This document shows positions 53,105 through 61,427 of a stretch of DNA of 64,000 nucleotides, piece after piece (position 1 is the stretch's first letter; each line of letters begins with the position of its first letter). The position numbers were made by a program, and so were the translations under genes. The DNA comes from Cryobacterium sp. CG_9.6. Its GTDB lineage: Bacteria > Actinomycetota > Actinomycetes > Actinomycetales > Microbacteriaceae. The notes under the pieces were generated by a model. It did no database searches and had not been told where the DNA came from. It saw only the letters and a list, made by a program, of their open reading frames with translations. Location of the stretch: assembly GCF_029893365.1 (NCBI RefSeq), contig NZ_JARXUZ010000001.1, positions 2,728,001 to 2,792,000 of the forward strand. The letters are read 5' to 3'.

Positions 53105-53261
53105 GTTTGCTCCTCAGAGTGCACGCACGTGCGTGGATACTCCCATGCTGGCAGCCCGCGGGCCCCAACGGGGCGTCACGGCACAATTGGTGCCGGTTCC
53201 CTCCGCGTCAGCGCGTGGGGCAGTACTGAAGCCGGGGCCCTGCCGTCCTGGCGGAGCACAC

Positions 53262-54496
53262 CTAATTCGTGCTGGTGGGGCGCCCGTCAAGCAGGTTTCT
53301 GGTGAACATAGCAATGTCGTCCTGAAGCCCGGCGTAGGCGTTCTCGACGAGGCTCTCCGACCGGACAAACATGTCCACCGCCTCGAGCGCTGAGGTGATG
53401 ATCGCGCGAGGTGCGCGCACTTTCCATGACAGGCCTTCCTCGATGAGGTCGTCGATGGTGATTGCGGCGTGCGCATACTTCCGGTTAATGGCCAACGCCA
53501 TTTTTCCATCGCTATCGAGGTGAGTTTGTGGCACAACATCGTAGGCCGGTGTAATTCTTGTGCTCCCGTCATGCAGATGGAGCATGCTGATGTTCTTGCC
53601 GTGCATGTCGAGGTTGCCCACAGCCTGCGAGACGGTGAGGAGTCTGAGGAGTTGGTCGACTGAGGTCCGGTCGCCGTTGCGCCCCAGGACCTCTGCTACT
53701 CGCTTGAGTGAGACTTTCCCGCCGAACTCCTGGTATTTCTCGTTCTTCGATGCGCCCAGGGCTTGGTTCATGTCTTCCTGGTGGATGCGTCCCTGCGGCG
53801 CGTCCGGCGACCTGTCGTACCGCTCGATGACGAGGCCGCGAGCCCCGCCGAAGTCTTCGATCCATGCCTCCAATGTGGTGAGGCCAGCAGCTCTGGCCAC
53901 ACGAAAGCCGTACTCCTCGTCAAACGTGATGGTCGGGTAGCGGACGGACGGCGGCTTGATAATGTGGGTGGACGGATAGCCCTCGAGAACCTGAAACCAG
54001 TTATTCTCCTTGTGCGCTAGAACGATCTTGTCCTGCACTCCGGCCAGCGAGGTCCGGCCGGACTTCGGCCGGTTTCCGAGAGGGGCGGCCTGAGTGTTGC
54101 CGAGCATTCGGCCGACCTCGGCCGCGTCGACCGGGGCCAAGTCAGGCTTGCGTGGCTCGCCCGGCGCCTCCGGGTCATAGATCTGAACGGCACCAGCGAC
54201 GTCTCGGCCAAACTGGGCGAGCAGCGGGATCACGTCATCGGTGGAGACTCTGATCTCGGCGGCGAGATTGTCGAGAGCGGCGCCCTCGGGAAGCAGCTCG
54301 GCGAAGAAGTTGCGGCGCGCGCGGCCCTGCTGCGGTTGGCCATGAGGTCGAATGGAACCGACTCGGAGAGAATCGTGCTCCCGAGCCCAAATCTCTCGAT
54401 GGCATTCTTAGTCGCGATGAAATCGAAAGTGCGACGGTCGGCGCCGACCAAGTGCCCCACCAGCTCGCCGTAGAGCTCCACGCGCAAGTCAGCCAT
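53262..54496 (-). pseudogene. hipA: hipA toxin kinase, split by a frameshift
   Basis: HipA-like Ser/Thr kinase. The first part (54496 to about 54315; MADLRVELYGELVGHL...DLMANRSRAAR) is in one frame. The rest (from RNFFAELLPEG onwards) is in another. The break is in a GC-rich run at about 54310-54325 and needs a one-base insertion or two-base loss. The kinase part keeps its motifs: SLAGVQDK, the catalytic GNLDMHGKNIS and the metal-binding PAYDVVP. Either a decayed toxin, a sequencing error in the GC run, or programmed shifting. The start overlaps the hipB stop by 8 bp. Confidence 0.8.
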
Positions 54497-54758
54497 TGGA
54501 TTCTTCCACGATGTCGTGACCGGTCTCATCCGATGAGTCAGCGATCTCCATGTACATCCTTACGCCGGTCTCCCGCATAATCGCGAAAATGCGTTCGAGG
54601 ATGATCGTGTTCTTGCCGGACTCCACAGCCCAGATGTATTTCTGGTCAGTCTCGAGCCTGTCGGCGAGGCCGCGCTGCGTCAGTCCGCTGACAAGGCGAC
54701 CCTGCTGCAGCATCCGACCAAGAGCCTCGGCGCTTCTCACTTCTCCGCGTGCTGCCAT
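54489..54758 (-). CDS. hipB: HipB-like antitoxin (Xre family)
   Basis: An 89-aa helix-turn-helix protein (SGLTQRGLADRLETDQKYIW at about 30-49; WAVESGKNTI follows). The position before hipA with an 8-bp overlap is the classic antitoxin-toxin order. A strong AGGAGGG lies 7 nt upstream of ATG 54758. The operator half-sites at 54772-54852 are its likely binding sites for autorepression. Confidence 0.88.
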   Translation of the reverse strand: MAARGEVRSAEALGRMLQQGRLVSGLTQRGLADRLETDQKYIWAVESGKNTIILERIFAIMRETGVRMYMEIADSSDETGHDIVEESNG

Positions 54759-54771
54759 GACAGTTCCCTCC

Positions 54772-54852
54772 TGACGGTCTTATTGCCTTCATGTTACCTG
54801 ACGGTCTTATCACCGTCAAGCAATCCTATGGTCATATTCCCGTCAAGCAATC
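54772..54852. promoter_or_regulatory. hipBA operator array
   Basis: Half-sites TGACGGT/CTTAT at 54772 and 54799 repeat with a 27-bp period. CCGTCAAGCAATC at 54813 and 54840 repeats with the same 27-bp period. The inner pair forms a perfect inverted repeat TGACGGT-N6-ACCGTCA at 54799-54818. HipB of E. coli also binds several spaced operators. It lies 14-94 bp before hipB. Confidence 0.75.
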
Positions 54853-54961: not shown

Positions 54962-55990
54962 ATGCATATAGAGGCAACGAGGACACGCGCCGTGGCTTCA
55001 GCGCGGCTCTCCCGCTGGTTGATGGCAGTCGGAGCGATTCTCACCCCAATCTCTCTCCTCCTCCTCCTCCTCCTCCTCCTCCTCCTCCTCCTCCTCCTCC
55101 TCCTCCTCCTCCTCCTCCTCCTCCTCCTCCTGACGTTCTTGCCTAGCGTGCCATCCGACGCGACGGCGATACCAGCGTGGGTTCAACGCGGAGAGGTATT
55201 GCTCACGTGGAGCGACGAGCTGCTGTTCTTCGTGGTCATCTGCTGGCGGGTCGGGGCGAGCGGCCTCTTTGGTTCTTACAGGTCGGCAGGCTCGGTGAGA
55301 ATCAACGTCGGGATGACGTCTCTGGCTTTAGCCCTTGGGGCTCTCGTCGTTCTCCTGCTGTCGGCAGGGCGTCTGGTGCACCCGGTGTTCGGGATTCAAC
55401 TTTCCGCCGATGTACTGGCCTTGGCTGTCAGCGCGTCGTTCGGCCTCAATCAGCGACTGGGGCGCACCCACAAACGGGCACGACCGCGGGGCGAGTTCTC
55501 GCATCCCCAGGTTCGCGGCACTCGTTTGAGTGGACGGCACTCGGGAAAAGGAGTGCTCGCCGCGCAAACACGTGCCGCGAGCGTCACGGGGCCTCACCCA
55601 GCGGGAGGGCTCAGCAAGCGAGCGGGCACGACCGCGAGGCCAGCTCGCACATCCGCCGGTTCGCGGCACTCGTTTGAGCGCGCGGCACTCGGGAAAACAA
55701 GTGCGACCCGCGCAAACACATGCCGCGAGCGCCACGTGGCCTCGACCAGCGAGTTCGGCACGCCAGCAAATGGGCCCCGGCCCCGGGCAGCGAGCGAGCA
55801 CGACCGCGGCATCCCCGCGGGTGATGAGTCACACCACCCCGGCCGACCAACGCCCAGACCTCGCTGTTCTCCGGCTGGCAGGGCGACCTTTCGTCACCAA
55901 GAGGGCACCGAACCGGATCGCTGGCGGGGCGCCATTGAGACCATCTTGCGGATCGCTTCACCGGCGCACTTGAAGGGCATTGCAACATAG
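54962..55990 (+). CDS. Hypothetical membrane protein with a 26-leucine run
   Basis: A frame of 342 codons without recognised family. After a short basic N-terminus (possible second start at 55022) comes a run of 26 leucines (residues 32-57) encoded by (CTC)25-CTG. Three further hydrophobic segments lie at about 83-98, 118-140 and 145-160. The remaining C-terminal 170 residues are Arg/Ser/Thr/Ala-rich and coincide with imperfect DNA repeats (55475 onwards), so the real protein may end early or be decayed. No good ribosome binding site. Confidence 0.4.
   Translation: MHIEATRTRAVASARLSRWLMAVGAILTPISLLLLLLLLLLLLLLLLLLLLLLLLLLTFLPSVPSDATAIPAWVQRGEVLLTWSDELLFFVVICWRVGASGLFGSYRSAGSVRINVGMTSLALALGALVVLLLSAGRLVHPVFGIQLSADVLALAVSASFGLNQRLGRTHKRARPRGEFSHPQVRGTRLSGRHSGKGVLAAQTRAASVTGPHPAGGLSKRAGTTARPARTSAGSRHSFERAALGKTSATRANTCRERHVASTSEFGTPANGPRPRAASEHDRGIPAGDESHHPGRPTPRPRCSPAGRATFRHQEGTEPDRWRGAIETILRIASPAHLKGIAT
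55055..55129 (+). repeat. (CTC)25 trinucleotide microsatellite
   Basis: Twenty-five exact CTC units in a row. In the frame 54962-55990 they code for leucine; other frames give proline or, on the other strand, glutamate runs. A uniform run this long is prone to slippage, and slippage by whole units keeps the frame. Confidence 0.95.
55475..55770 (+). repeat. Imperfect direct repeats of about 150 bp
   Basis: Two diverged copies start at CGGGCACGACCGCG (55475 and 55623, offset 148). They share the later blocks GTTCGCGGCACTCGTTTGAG, GGCACTCGGGAAAA and GCGCAAACAC-TGCCGCGAGCG. A third remnant of the start is at 55795. They cover the Arg-rich C-terminal part of the poly-leucine frame. Confidence 0.75.
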
Positions 55991-56158: not shown

Positions 56159-56740
56159 TTATGTGCGGGCACCCAGGAAGGGAGGGGGCGGCGATGCTGG
56201 GACTGCGGGGATTCCCTGTTTGAAGATGGGTTCGAGGAGGCGCAGTGCTTTGTCGGGGAGCCCGTCTCCCGGGAAAAAGTCATTCAGCAATTCCTCGGCC
56301 GCACTGAGTTCACGAACATCGCAGATCGCGAGCAGGTTGGCGATGTCCTGCACGTCGCGTCCCGGGCGCGATGCGTTGAGCTTCATGGCTAGCAGCGCCC
56401 GGGGTGAGGCAACTTCCACTGTGATGTCCTCGTTCGCGTAGAGGACCTCCCAGCCAGGGTCAGCCCCATAGGACGGTAGAAACATCGTGGCGTTGCTGTT
56501 GAGCCAGTCCTGTGGCCAGCCGTTCTCGTCGGCTACTTCAACTGCAGCCTTCAGGATTGGTTGCTCGGGCTGCAGGTGCGCATCGACATCTGCGGTTGTT
56601 CGGCGGTCGAAGTACCGAAGAGCGAGTGCAGCGCCTCCAACGATTCGGATGACTGCAGGCTGGCCGGCCACGCGGAGTTTGGCGATGACCGCGTTGATGC
56701 CTCGGATGAGGTCATCGCGGTCGAGTTGATCTCCGGGCAT
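56159..56740 (-). CDS. Nucleotidyltransferase-like protein (DUF6036 type), partner of the Xre gene
   Basis: A 193-aa protein. The minimal nucleotidyltransferase motif is GGAALALRYFDRRTTADVDAHL in pattern (GG-x-A-x9-T-x-D-x-D), with a later acidic residue (EDITVEVASP) as third ligand. Such proteins form toxin-antitoxin or defence pairs with Xre regulators. Its ATG at 56740 overlaps the stop of the upstream Xre gene. The role of this pair is inferred from architecture only. Confidence 0.72.
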   Translation of the reverse strand: MPGDQLDRDDLIRGINAVIAKLRVAGQPAVIRIVGGAALALRYFDRRTTADVDAHLQPEQPILKAAVEVADENGWPQDWLNSNATMFLPSYGADPGWEVLYANEDITVEVASPRALLAMKLNASRPGRDVQDIANLLAICDVRELSAAEELLNDFFPGDGLPDKALRLLEPIFKQGIPAVPASPPPPFLGART

Positions 56741-57327
56741 TAGACACTTTCTAGGGTTTCGGCTTCAATCAGGATGCCGCGGCGGAGGAACTCGACGGGT
56801 ACTCGCGCCGGGTCTGCCGGGATGTCGTAGTCACTTGTGCGGGGTGCCCACGGGCTGTCAGGGAGTCCTACTTGTTTGGTGACCCAGTCCGGAACGGGCA
56901 GGGCCTCTGCTTTGAGCCGGTATTCGCAAAGAGCGGCGATGGCGGCGTCCCATCGGTCGGACCCGGTGGAGGACGGCTCGCTCAACGCGAGGCCGACTCG
57001 GGTGGCTCCGCGTTCTGAAGCGAGGTTGTCGGCGAGTTGGAGGAATCGCCGGAATGCCGCGACTTCATCCGATCTGGTGATTGCTTCGCCGATCTCGGAT
57101 GCGATGCGGGCGGCATCGCTGCGTACCGTCGGGACTGTCACAATCGTGTGGCGGGTCGCTCGCAACAGTGCCTCGAGTGTGGCGACTGTCGGTTCGCGCT
57201 TGCCGTGTTCAATCAGGGAGAGCGATGAGCCGGCGATCCCTGAGCGAAGTGCGAGCTGGCTTTGCGTGAGTCCGCTCGCAGCCCTGGCGGAACGAGCAAG
57301 AACACCTGCTGTCATCTCAATCACCAC
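56740..57327 (-). CDS. Xre family regulator with C-terminal extension
   Basis: A 195-aa protein. The N-terminal helix-turn-helix is ASGLTQSQLALRSGIAGSSL; the C-terminal 100 residues (PVPDWV, SPWAPR, EFLRRGILIEAE) form a conserved companion domain of nucleotidyltransferase-linked regulators. Start GTG 57327 or ATG 57315; neither has a strong box. A palindrome at 57329-57346 directly abuts the GTG, so autorepression is likely. Confidence 0.78.
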   Translation of the reverse strand: MVIEMTAGVLARSARAASGLTQSQLALRSGIAGSSLSLIEHGKREPTVATLEALLRATRHTIVTVPTVRSDAARIASEIGEAITRSDEVAAFRRFLQLADNLASERGATRVGLALSEPSSTGSDRWDAAIAALCEYRLKAEALPVPDWVTKQVGLPDSPWAPRTSDYDIPADPARVPVEFLRRGILIEAETLESV

Positions 57328-57346: not shown

Positions 57347-57419
57347 GCATACCAATCCCGATCCAATGAAGGGCTGGAGAATGTTGACGGCCCTGCAAGT
57401 CGAGGTGAATTGTGCCGTC

Positions 57420-58004
57420 ATGGATGAACTACTGATCGGGTACGCGCACGTATCCACAAATGAGCAAGACCTCACCGTCCAACAAAACGCCTTGGAACGA
57501 CTGGGCGTTAGATCGAACCTGATCTACACCGATCATGGCCTCACGGGAACCAACCGTGCGAGGCCAGGATTGCGCGAAGCGCTTGCTGCCTGCAGGAGCG
57601 GTGACACGCTCGTGGTGGCCAAACTCGATCGTCTGGCCAGGTCGCTCCGCGATGCGCAAGACATCGTCGATGAGCTGACCGCCAAGGGAATGAAGCTCAG
57701 CATCGGCGGCTCCGTGCATGACCCGAATGATCCAGTTGGCTGGCTCCTCTTCAACGTCCTCGCCATGGTCGCGGAATTCGAGTCCGATCTCATCCGCCCT
57801 CGAACGAAAGAGGGCATGCAAGTGGCGAAAGCGAAGGGACGGTTGCGCGGCAATTCACCGAAGCTGTCCCCGGCGCAGCAGAAGCACCTGATGGAGGTCT
57901 ACAACGCTGGCACTCACACAACGGCCGAGCTTGCTGAACTGTTCAATGTCGCCCGCTCCACAATCTACCGAACCATCCAGCGCCAAGACCGAGGCAATAC
58001 CTAG
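57420..58004 (+). CDS. Serine recombinase (resolvase/invertase family)
   Basis: A 194-aa site-specific recombinase. The catalytic Ser12 is in YAHVSTNEQDL. The rest of the domain has LDRLARSLRDA and EFESDLIRPRTKEGM, with a C-terminal HTH (TTAELAELFNVARSTIYRTI). The usual YARVST reads YAHVST: the position of catalytic Arg8 of gamma-delta resolvase is His10 here. IRERT reads IRPRT. These changes may reduce activity. It is divergent from the Xre gene and near relBE; no matching inverted crossover sites were seen. Confidence 0.85.
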   Translation: MDELLIGYAHVSTNEQDLTVQQNALERLGVRSNLIYTDHGLTGTNRARPGLREALAACRSGDTLVVAKLDRLARSLRDAQDIVDELTAKGMKLSIGGSVHDPNDPVGWLLFNVLAMVAEFESDLIRPRTKEGMQVAKAKGRLRGNSPKLSPAQQKHLMEVYNAGTHTTAELAELFNVARSTIYRTIQRQDRGNT

Positions 58005-58101
58005 CCGCCGAGATCGCGTTGCAGGACGGACTGTCCTGCACGGGGAACGGCTTGCGCGACAGAACTGCTTGTCTTGGCGCCTTCCTAAAGTGCTGCTGTG
58101 T

Positions 58102-58368
58102 TCAGAGCCTGTTGTAAACCTCGCGACGGTGTGCATCCTCAACGATGAGGATGAGAATCTGATCGTCGTCGATAGTTGTGAGGATGCGGTAATCACCAAC
58201 TCGATAACGCCAGAACTCCTCGTTCACGAGCTTCTTGCCGAGCATGCGCGGATTGTCGAGGCGAGCGAGTTTTTGCTCAAGAAATCCTCGGATGCGTTTC
58301 GCTGCTGTGGGATCAAGTTGTGTAACCTGCTTCGCTGCCTTCGGCGTGAATCTGATCGCGTAGCTCAC
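58102..58368 (-). CDS. relE: RelE/ParE family toxin
   Basis: An 88-aa toxin of the RelE superfamily (mRNA interferase type). It has the N-terminal pattern YAIRFTPKAAKQVTQLD. The C-terminal WRYRVGDYRILTTIDDD and AHRREVY carry the basic and aromatic residues used for mRNA cleavage. The start overlaps the antitoxin stop by 4 bp (ATGA). Confidence 0.88.
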   Translation of the reverse strand: MSYAIRFTPKAAKQVTQLDPTAAKRIRGFLEQKLARLDNPRMLGKKLVNEEFWRYRVGDYRILTTIDDDQILILIVEDAHRREVYNRL

Positions 58369-58583
58369 GCAGGCCAGACCACGTCAGCAAGATCGATCGC
58401 ATCGTCGTTGGACTGAGTGAATTCCTCCAGCGCATCTTTTGCCAGAAGGTAATCTTCGTTCTCGTCCAGATACTGCGTCAATGCCTCGGTCGCATAAAAA
58501 GTTTTCGACCGGCCAGTACGCGCAGACAGGTACTGCAAACGACGCTCCGTTTCATCGTCAACGCGGATATTGATTTGCGGCAT
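58365..58583 (-). CDS. relB: RelB-like ribbon-helix-helix antitoxin
   Basis: A 72-aa acidic protein. The N-terminal ribbon-helix-helix DNA-binding part (PQINIRVDDETERRLQYLSA) is followed by an acidic toxin-binding tail. A GGAGGAG box lies 6 nt before ATG 58583. A palindrome at 58601-58616 overlaps the likely -10 region, fitting autoregulation. Confidence 0.85.
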   Translation of the reverse strand: MPQINIRVDDETERRLQYLSARTGRSKTFYATEALTQYLDENEDYLLAKDALEEFTQSNDDAIDLADVVWPA

Positions 58584-59127: not shown

Positions 59128-59257
59128 GGTCCTGCCACTGCGGCCCTCGAAGCTCACTGCTGGTCGGCGGAACGCCGTTTAGGTGTCCCGAGAAACTGCC
59201 CGATGACCGGGCGTGTTAAGGACGAGAGAGTGGTCTGCTTTTCCAGAGCCGCAATGA

Positions 59258-59464
59258 CACTCTGCTCTCACGAAGGTCAACTCCGTTTTTGGTCACGAGG
59301 TTGCGTCGGTGATCGTCGATCCCAACAGCGCCGAGGTCACACGCACGCACTTTGTAGGAGTACTCGAAGTCGCGGGCCCTGACGTCCGCTCCGCACCTAA
59401 CGAACTGGGATCGTTTGGCGAGCTTCGAGCGGTTGAGAAGGCCTCAGAGCGAGCAAAACGATGA
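59258..59464 (+). pseudogene. 3' remnant of an unidentified gene next to the tRNA-Arg locus
   Basis: An open stretch of 68 codons without start; the stop TGA is at 59462. It has coding-like composition (VASVIVDPNSAEVTRTHF, VLEVAGPDVRSAPNELG) and ends RAVEKASERAKR. The matching part of the second repeat copy (61258-61281) keeps RAVEKAS and then stops. It was probably the end of the gene that lay beside tRNA-Arg before the insertion. Family unknown. Confidence 0.5.
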
Positions 59465-59549
59465 GTAAACAATGGATCGGCCGGGATTTCGTAAAGAATC
59501 TCCCGGCTGATCCACTTGTTTTATGTGCCCCTGGAGGGATTCGAACCCC
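59431..59549. repeat. Left direct repeat of the AbiE island (att-like, tRNA 3' end copy)
   Basis: 119 bp aligned without gaps to 61261-61379 (offset 1830); I count 107 identical bases. The last 24 bases (59526-59549) copy the 3' end of tRNA-Arg(CCT) exactly, and the identical core extends to 35 bp. It also includes a copy of the tRNA terminator hairpin (59481-59506). Confidence 0.88.
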
Positions 59550-59730
59550 AATAATCGACCGGCCAGCGTCGCCGACGTGGTCAAAAACCGCGTGATTTCA
59601 ACGTTTTTGGGTCACAGTGAGGCGTCCAGATTCACCCAGATTTTTTCACGTGTGGGCAAAATGTGGGCACGCAGGGGGGGGTCAGGGCAGCTTTGATTCC
59701 TTGGTGTACGAAAGTGTTTGCAGCTAAAGT

Positions 59731-59756
59731 TACGTGTGTACACTTCAATACACGTA
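59731..59756. promoter_or_regulatory. abiE operator
   Basis: Perfect 7-bp inverted repeat TACGTGT-N12-ACACGTA, 14 bp before abiEi. The core GTGTAC also occurs 32 bp upstream at 59704. AbiEi antitoxins repress their own promoter through inverted repeats, so this is the expected site. Confidence 0.7.
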
Positions 59757-59769
59757 GAAGGGGGTTGGG

Positions 59770-60354
59770 ATGCATTCGATTGACAGCCTGCCTGCTGCCG
59801 CCTTCACCACCGCCATGGCCACCGATGCTGGGGTGGGGGCACGAGACCTGCGTCGGCTCAGCGATAACGGAACCATCGACCGAATCGCCCGAGGGCTTTA
59901 CCGCCGTGCCGATCTGCCGCCAGCCAACCTGGACCTAATTGAGATCGTGGCGCGGAAGCCCGACGCAACAATGTGCCTGTCGAGTGCTTTGGCGCACCAC
60001 GGCCTCGTTGACGTCATCCCCGCCCGAATCGATATTGCCCTTCCGCGGGGTGCTCGAATCCCTCGCACTGATACTCCGGTTTCCTGGCATCATTTCGACG
60101 TCGCAACGTTCGTGCTCGAGCGCACCGAGCTGGCCATCGACGGATCCGACGCGACGATCGGCCTGTATTCGCCGGAACGTTCCATCGTCGATGCCTATCG
60201 ATTGCGCGGGTCGGAGGGGTACGAGATCGCCCCGGAAGCGCTGAAGAACTGGCTGCGCCGACGTGGGTCTCACCCTTCCGCACTGATGAACATCGCCCGG
60301 CAGCTGCCCCGAGCGAGCGGTCCGTTGCGTCATGCCCTGGAGTTGCTCTCGTGA
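59770..60354 (+). CDS. abiEi: AbiEi-type antitoxin/transcriptional repressor
   Basis: A 194-aa protein. The N-terminal winged helix is of AbiEi_4 type (GVGARDLRRLSDNGTIDRIARG in pattern, ending GLYRRAD). The C-terminal antitoxin domain has LSSALAHHGL and YSPERSIVDAYRLRG. It represses the operon and neutralises AbiEii, a type IV arrangement in which toxin and antitoxin do not bind stably. AAGGGGG precedes ATG 59770. Confidence 0.9.
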   Translation: MHSIDSLPAAAFTTAMATDAGVGARDLRRLSDNGTIDRIARGLYRRADLPPANLDLIEIVARKPDATMCLSSALAHHGLVDVIPARIDIALPRGARIPRTDTPVSWHHFDVATFVLERTELAIDGSDATIGLYSPERSIVDAYRLRGSEGYEIAPEALKNWLRRRGSHPSALMNIARQLPRASGPLRHALELLS

Positions 60355-61232
60355 GTCAGCCGTCGCAACTCTATGCCGCGCTCTCACGGTATGCCCGAAC
60401 GTCGGGCCGGGCAGTCTCAGAGACGGTCACCCTCTACGCCATGGAGGCTTTCCTGAGCAGACTCGCTCAGACAATCTACAAGGATGACTTCGTACTGAAA
60501 GGCGGAGTGCTTCTTGCTGCGTATCGCCTCCGCCGTCCGACGAGCGACATCGATATGGAAGCAGTCAACTTTCAGGTGGATGCCGCCCATTTGCTCGCTG
60601 TAGTGGAGGCAGTTGCGGCCGTATCCGTCGACGAAGCCCTGGCAATTGACCCGGCACGCACCGAGGTCCGCGCCATCCGCGAGGGTGACGACTACTCCGG
60701 GCTCCGAGTCAAGATATTTGCACACGTATACACGAGCGCGCTGTCGTTCCATCTGGACATCAGCACCGGTGACCCGATCTGGCCGGCCCCGCGTTCGGTG
60801 GCTGTCCCGCGTATCCTCGGTGGCGAAATTGAGATGCTCGGCTATCCGCTGGTGATGGTTGTTGCAGAAAAGGCGGTCACGATGCTGACCCGTGGAACGA
60901 CAAGCACACGATGGCGCGACATCGTCGACCTGCGAAATTTCTCGCTGACCCACGACTTCAGCGCGAGTGAGCTTCGCGGTGCGGCTCAGCGCGTGGCCGA
61001 TTTCCGCCAAGTGCCGCTGACCTCAGCCTCTGTCGCCACGACAAGCTGGCCAGTGGTCGCTCAAACAAAATGGGCAGCCTGGCGTCGCAAACTCGCCCTC
61101 ACCGACATCTGCCTCGAATCATTCGACAGCCAACTGGCCAACGTGATCCAATTCATAGATCCGGTTTTCATCGGTACCGTGGGCGACGTTGACACGTGGG
61201 ACCCGTCGACTCAGCGCTGGACCAAACGCTGA
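60351..61232 (+). CDS. abiEii: AbiEii-type nucleotidyltransferase toxin
   Basis: A 293-aa toxin of the AbiEii/AbiGii (DUF1814) family. The nucleotidyltransferase core is FVLKGGVLLAAYRLRRPTSD followed by DID; a third motif is VKIFAHVYTSALSFHLDIS. The conserved Lys motif is MVVAEKAVTML, then RWRDIVDL. AbiE family toxins add nucleotides to RNA (tRNA acceptor ends in studied homologues) and cause abortive infection of phage. The start overlaps abiEi by 4 bp. Confidence 0.9.
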   Translation: MSQPSQLYAALSRYARTSGRAVSETVTLYAMEAFLSRLAQTIYKDDFVLKGGVLLAAYRLRRPTSDIDMEAVNFQVDAAHLLAVVEAVAAVSVDEALAIDPARTEVRAIREGDDYSGLRVKIFAHVYTSALSFHLDISTGDPIWPAPRSVAVPRILGGEIEMLGYPLVMVVAEKAVTMLTRGTTSTRWRDIVDLRNFSLTHDFSASELRGAAQRVADFRQVPLTSASVATTSWPVVAQTKWAAWRRKLALTDICLESFDSQLANVIQFIDPVFIGTVGDVDTWDPSTQRWTKR

Positions 61233-61260
61233 ATTCAAATCCGCAAGGGGAACGTCGCGC

Positions 61261-61379
61261 GGTTGAGAAGGCCTCATAGCGAGCAATGCAAGGAGTAAAC
61301 AAGGGACGTGCCGGGATTTCGTAAGGAATCTCCCGGCCGATCCCCTTGTTTTATGTGCCCCTGGAGGGATTCGAACCCC
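61261..61379. repeat. Right direct repeat of the AbiE island (includes the functional tRNA 3' end)
   Basis: Counterpart of 59431-59549. Its last 24 bases are part of the intact tRNA-Arg gene. Mismatches between the copies lie outside the tRNA segment, mostly at 61281-61310. Confidence 0.88.
61310..61337 (-). terminator. Terminator of tRNA-Arg
   Basis: A hairpin with GCCGGGA and TCCCGGC arms and further partly paired A/T bases lies about 20 bp after the tRNA 3' end. The same hairpin is copied at 59481-59506 in the left repeat. Confidence 0.6.
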
Positions 61380-61427
61380 CAACCGTTTCCTTAGGACGGA
61401 ACTGCTCTTCCGTTGAGCTACAGAGGC
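61356..61427 (-). tRNA. tRNA-Arg (anticodon CCT)
   Basis: A 72-nt cloverleaf. The acceptor arms GCCTCTG and CAGGGGC pair with one G-U. The anticodon loop GTCCTAA has CCT (reads AGG). The T-arm has TTCGAAT. No encoded CCA. Its 3' end is the integration target of the AbiE island. The first anticodon-stem pair appears mismatched (G-A). Confidence 0.9.

Follow-up and report, generated by a model that had tools for sequence, protein, structure and literature searches.

How a defence-family gene pair of the AbiE type came to lie between two copies of the 3′ end of tRNA-Arg(CCT), and whether it can still move, is the question raised by a 1.8-kb segment of Cryobacterium sp. CG_9.6. The segment is part of the 64-kb stretch of DNA analysed here (the window), and its features are collected in the table below. 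A first-pass annotation had described it as a defence cassette bounded by duplicated tRNA 3′ ends, and this architecture is borne out, with both AbiEi and AbiEii located between the cores. Integrative elements probably accumulated in tandem at tRNA-Arg(CCT) and then decayed, losing most of their genes, integrases included, and leaving AbiE between hybrid ends. The “island” itself is best understood as a chimera that tandem integration and deletion left behind.

Features of the AbiE locus (window positions; hairpin z-scores were computed against mono-nucleotide shuffles)
Feature	Position	Strand	Basis
Broken int6-type integrase remnant	59205-59464	+	tblastn E 3.9e-10 to G006 integrase among 59 loci
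Terminator-like hairpin, outer copy	59459-59524	minus	fold -30.1 kcal/mol, z -6.6
Outer att core, copy of tRNA 3′ end	59525-59549	minus	25/25 identical to inner core
int14-type arm, holds GTGTGGGCAAAATGTGGGCAC	59550-59675		83-95% identity in G014, G043, G036, G049, G017
AbiEi antitoxin (predicted), 194 aa, open frame	59770-60354	+	Pfam PF13338 8.3e-9; PADLOC AbiEi 1e-49
AbiEii nucleotidyltransferase toxin (predicted), 293 aa, open frame	60351-61232	+	Pfam PF08843 1.3e-26; PADLOC AbiEii 8.5e-70
Presumed deletion junction	61250-61258		AbiE-unit homology stops, integrase tail starts
Integrase gene end, int6 family, last six codons (AVEKAS) and stop	61259-61279	+	sequence
Terminator-like hairpin, inner copy, directly 3′ of tRNA (int6-type end)	61289-61354	minus	fold -30.5 kcal/mol, z -5.0
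Inner att core, 3′ 25 bases of tRNA	61355-61379	minus	25/25 identity to outer core
tRNA-Arg(CCT), intact	61355-61427	minus	ARAGORN

The cores belong to a gapless direct repeat (59417-59549 and 61247-61379) in which 117 of 133 positions (88%) are identical. Identity is complete (25/25) over the 3′ end of the tRNA, confirming its duplication, and amounts to 82/94 outside the tRNA (59431-59524). The 119 bp originally assigned to the repeat are a fair length, with homology fading on the AbiEii side at about 61250-61258. A search of the genome itself returned these two places only, the second copy at an E-value of 1.3e-42, far beyond chance; within the 64-kb window, no core copy besides the two was found with up to 6 mismatches allowed.

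Beyond the tRNA, the repeated flank had been thought to hold a terminator and the tail of a gene that was formerly its neighbour. A terminator-like hairpin is indeed present, but what was taken for a neighbour gene is a tyrosine-integrase 3′ end. The neighbour-gene reading was rejected by a tblastn match to the integrase of another Cryobacterium genome, G006. That integrase is an unbroken open frame of 375 residues, contains a Phage_integrase domain and lies beside tRNA-Arg(CCT) with its C-terminus facing the tRNA. The outer remnant consists of two pieces in different frames, corresponding to G006 residues 265-285 and 314-374 (46% of 61 identical), and the stretch between them is missing. The tyrosine of the G006 motif RHYIE, which we take to be the catalytic one, is replaced by phenylalanine in the remnant. 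Past the tRNA and hairpin, the plus-strand frame of the outer copy ends in AVEKASERAKR and a stop; the G006 protein ends in LVEKAP, and the inner copy lacks the rest of the int6 integrase gene. A Pfam search with the 68-residue integrase piece of the window found no family. The earlier statement that the cassette contains no integrase thus holds for a complete or working one, although the 3′ end of an integrase gene is part of the repeat. Judged from these alignments, each repeat copy is a tRNA 3′ end followed by a terminator-like hairpin and an integrase 3′ end, and both copies are tRNA-side ends of the predicted int6 element family. Because the “neighbour gene” is an integrase tail, the repeated flank is an element end; what looks like a long att repeat can thus consist of the ends of two elements with their integrase tails and not of duplicated chromosome. 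Further int6 remnants lie beside tRNA-Arg(CCT) in G016 and G032 (tblastn), and in G049 one is found next to a core copy preceded by an int14-type arm, the same order as at the outer junction of the window.

The hairpin was aligned across seven ends, namely the two of the window and those of G006, G049, G032, G016 and G015, in the last of which no integrase remnant was found. In this alignment 89.6% of cells pair, and 5 of the 14 pairs are changed on both sides. The covariation score was reached by 1 of 500 shuffles, but the number of pair types by 352 of 500. When the seven sequences are folded singly, two of them give weak hairpins (G015, z -2.1; G016, z -1.8).

The outer edge of the cassette has a different affiliation. 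Arm and core together (59525-59675) are matched at 83-95% identity in 5 of 100 relatives searched and at 73-74% in G044, in addition to shorter partial matches, and the arm adjoins core copies in other genomes, some with AbiE and some without. On these matches, the edge is the far end of a second putative element family, int14. The closest counterpart is that of C. luteum (G014), where core, arm and AbiE (59525-61257) are matched at 94.6% at the same tRNA locus. Backbone synteny continues beyond the core of G014, where an AMP-binding gene lies, and an unbroken 365-aa int14 integrase (Pfam) adjoins the tRNA on a contig other than that of AbiE. Since the tRNA is on a separate contig from AbiE in G014, and from the int6 ends in G049, adjacency in these two genomes rests on synteny and core copies. 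A unit of AbiE, arm and core is also present in G043 at 86-91% identity, with a homocysteine S-methyltransferase gene beyond the core; the same gene is found 1.0-2.0 kb from the tRNA in G052. The proposal that the cassette derives from the same locus of a related strain therefore stands as far as AbiE and the outer core are concerned, and fails for the other end, which differs in C. luteum. G014 and G017 have an open int14 integrase frame at the tRNA, and G044 has one next to a second core. Truncated int14 genes at the tRNA in four other relatives (G047, G019, G049, G045) show that integrase loss recurs at tRNA-Arg(CCT).

The two affiliations meet just behind abiEii. By blastn, the four closest AbiE units (G014, G043, G003, G028) end at 61253-61257, immediately before the integrase tail, and four more distant ones end earlier, at 61181-61220. 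The proposed history has four steps. An int6-type element would have integrated and decayed to give the outer copy. An int14-type element with AbiE at its far end would then have entered the same tRNA in front of the int6 remnant, after which another int6-type end may have come to adjoin the tRNA. Finally, a deletion would have brought the end of abiEii up against the six terminal codons of that integrase and removed the rest of both elements, leaving an AbiE island presumably incapable of self-mobility. No genome examined has the intermediate stage, in which a complete int6-type element would precede AbiE, and the order of the steps is the one that we infer. Duplication of the outer copy followed by drift could likewise yield two int6 tails, which diverge by about 13%.

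The cassette had initially been taken for a model of a satellite island. In such a reading it would be a minimal mobile unit, excising and integrating through its core by means of an integrase that an int6- or int14-type element supplies in trans. Such a unit would account for the identical cores on both sides, and it has possible helpers in the unbroken int14 and int6 integrases at tRNA-Arg(CCT) of other species. Possible analogues are found in G050, G044 and G015, where cores enclose cassettes of 1.6-2.3 kb inside which neither of these two families, the ones searched, has a match. It is nevertheless an unlikely account of this locus: each end has its match in a different integrase family, the best int14-like and int6-like proteins of the genome are only 55% and 28% identical and are encoded elsewhere in it, and a unit with both ends was not among the matches listed for 100 relatives. 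The satellite claim is thus weakened, decay being the simpler history. PICI-like phage satellites are defined by their own integrase and phage-hijacking genes. The AbiE segment shares with PICI/SaPI elements its small size, a tRNA-type site and defence cargo, but no integrase, replication, packaging or phage-hijacking gene was recognised in window positions 59550-61354. A more speculative version, in which the hybrid att ends make the two-gene defence cassette movable by either of the two integrase families upon entering the cell, is given little credence; if true, decay at a crowded tRNA site would create new minimal mobile defence units.

Comparison with relatives' tRNA loci bears on the remaining alternatives. 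Of 60 genomes of the same family, 58 yielded such a locus; the other two, G027 and G029, had no full tRNA match. The search of other genomes for the duplicated tRNA-Arg(CCT) 3′ end, as had been suggested, returned a downstream core copy with at most 4 mismatches in 7 of the 58 loci (G015, G032, G016, G050, G044, G024, G052); G036 is missed by this threshold, and the matches in G024 and G052, with 3-4 mismatches, may be other tRNA remnants. Over the 120 positions beyond the core copy, identity is 24-34% in the seven relatives versus 78% in the window. A second, core-free control compared the first 110 bases after each tRNA with downstream DNA of the same locus. The window aligns over 108 bases at 85% (E 6e-28); the best of the other loci are G036, over 40 bases in an arm motif (2e-7) and 37 bases at 81% in a hairpin directly after its outer core (3e-5), and G012, over 69 bases at 68% (3e-5). 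In G036 a hairpin of the int14 type follows the tRNA and another follows the outer core, which makes this locus a partial parallel for the stacking of similar ends. None of the 58 loci has the extended repeat at full length within downstream ranges of 1.3-18 kb (median 17.8), some of which stop at contig ends, so that more distant copies would be missed. Sharing of the arrangement by all relatives, named beforehand as the mark of an old fixed duplication, is thus not observed, and it is unlikely that a plain tandem duplication of the tRNA 3′ flank became fixed long ago in the lineage. Apart from the gapless alignment of the repeat, little agrees with such a duplication, as the enclosed unit and the arm occur elsewhere as units, and it can practically be discounted. 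A further core-copy group, the third, is represented in G050, G044, G033 and G005 by about 43 shared bases with another flank type, and some of its members enclose cassettes of 1.6-2.0 kb.

A homologous exchange could also be envisaged, in which the tRNA-side segment was gained from a related strain already carrying tRNA, int6 tail and AbiE. Divergent outer parts around an identical core and the 94.6% similarity of the AbiE unit to C. luteum are compatible with this route, yet no such donor is present at the 58 tRNA loci, and the origin of the chimera would only be shifted to another strain. It is considered quite improbable, and decay of a tandem array is the preferred reading.

The cargo is a predicted type IV toxin-antitoxin pair, assigned by family membership. 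AbiEi would repress and counteract, and the AbiEii nucleotidyltransferase would halt the growth of infected cells. Work on Serratia AbiE proposes tRNA as the target and describes an AbiEi_4 antitoxin there too (PMC7725324). As in known AbiE systems, an AbiEi_4-type antitoxin is adjacent to an AbiEii nucleotidyltransferase, the end of the first gene overlapping the start of the second by 4 bases; the window pair differs in that its matches to plasmid and phage records lie below 60% identity and its function is predicted. AbiEii was aligned with 7 relatives, and the sole solved chain found to match this toxin type is AbiGII (9hlo, E 7.3e-20). Between the window and G014, 44 synonymous and 27 non-synonymous codon differences among 489 suggest constraint on the pair. 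Its close relatives are mainly in Cryobacterium. Eight of ten loci of AbiEii relatives were examined, two from Nocardiopsis being left out; within the fetched flank a core copy accompanies AbiEii at two and is missing at six, which means that AbiE is found elsewhere too. AbiEii is split across two frames in G043, and in G035 a remnant of AbiEii, 139 bp long, persists at the tRNA locus. A second AbiEii-like fragment (G000 C2, 60617-60772) is 50% identical across 52 residues and contains a stop. A viral origin of the pair was also considered and rejected: viral contigs, scanned by patterns able to reveal close relatives only, contained no AbiEii or int6 relative, and 16 phage and 605 plasmid records match only below 60%.

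Among described elements, the locus is most like a cis-mobilizable element (CIME; defined in PMC5704250), and may be viewed as a CIME-like remnant with hybrid ends, a decayed genomic island of an ordinary kind. Like a CIME, it has att copies at both ends, shares a single target gene with further decayed elements stacked there, has lost its integration gene (only the pieces at 59205-59464 and 61259-61279 are kept in the window) and carries no transfer gene between the cores, where the frames scanned are AbiEi and AbiEii. It differs in its size of only 1.8 kb, in ends from two integrase families and in parent elements that are partly known, among them the int14-type element of G044 described below, whose gene content bears on a possible ICE or IME ancestry; the locus is a candidate member of the class. 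By title, no publication on the tRNA-Arg(CCT) AbiE locus was found in the literature on Cryobacterium genomic islands.

The wider site looks like an integration hotspot. An AMP-binding/PP-binding backbone gene (Pfam) is located downstream of the tRNA at 33 of 58 relatives' loci, at distances from about 230 bp (G003) to more than 17 kb among Cryobacterium relatives; in the window the distance is about 28 kb (32890-61354). The locus would thus be a layered example of defence genes stranded at a tRNA integration hotspot. A larger element in G044 (C23, 8427-54287) spans about 46 kb between core-like copies, its far boundary being placed by an imperfect core and a match of 73% to the arm. Besides an int14 integrase it encodes the Gabija proteins GajA and GajB as well as type III restriction-modification, and it has a match to the SCO6880 family (9.7e-22) and a weak VirB4-like match (7.8e-6) below its cut-off.

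Other genes of the window also have counterparts or partners. A HipA_C region (53220-54846) and a serine resolvase (57371-58039) match contig L067 of G008 at 89% and 86%, and in G008 they also lie beside an AbiE pair, without a core copy. A DUF6036/AbiEii-like nucleotidyltransferase adjoins an HTH gene (56159-57327), possibly a second toxin-antitoxin pair, and another is likely formed by a gene for a ParE-type toxin and its small partner, which is TraY/Rv0623-like (58102-58583). Between these regions, a plus-strand frame (54962-55990) encodes a long leucine run and arginine-rich repeated segments.
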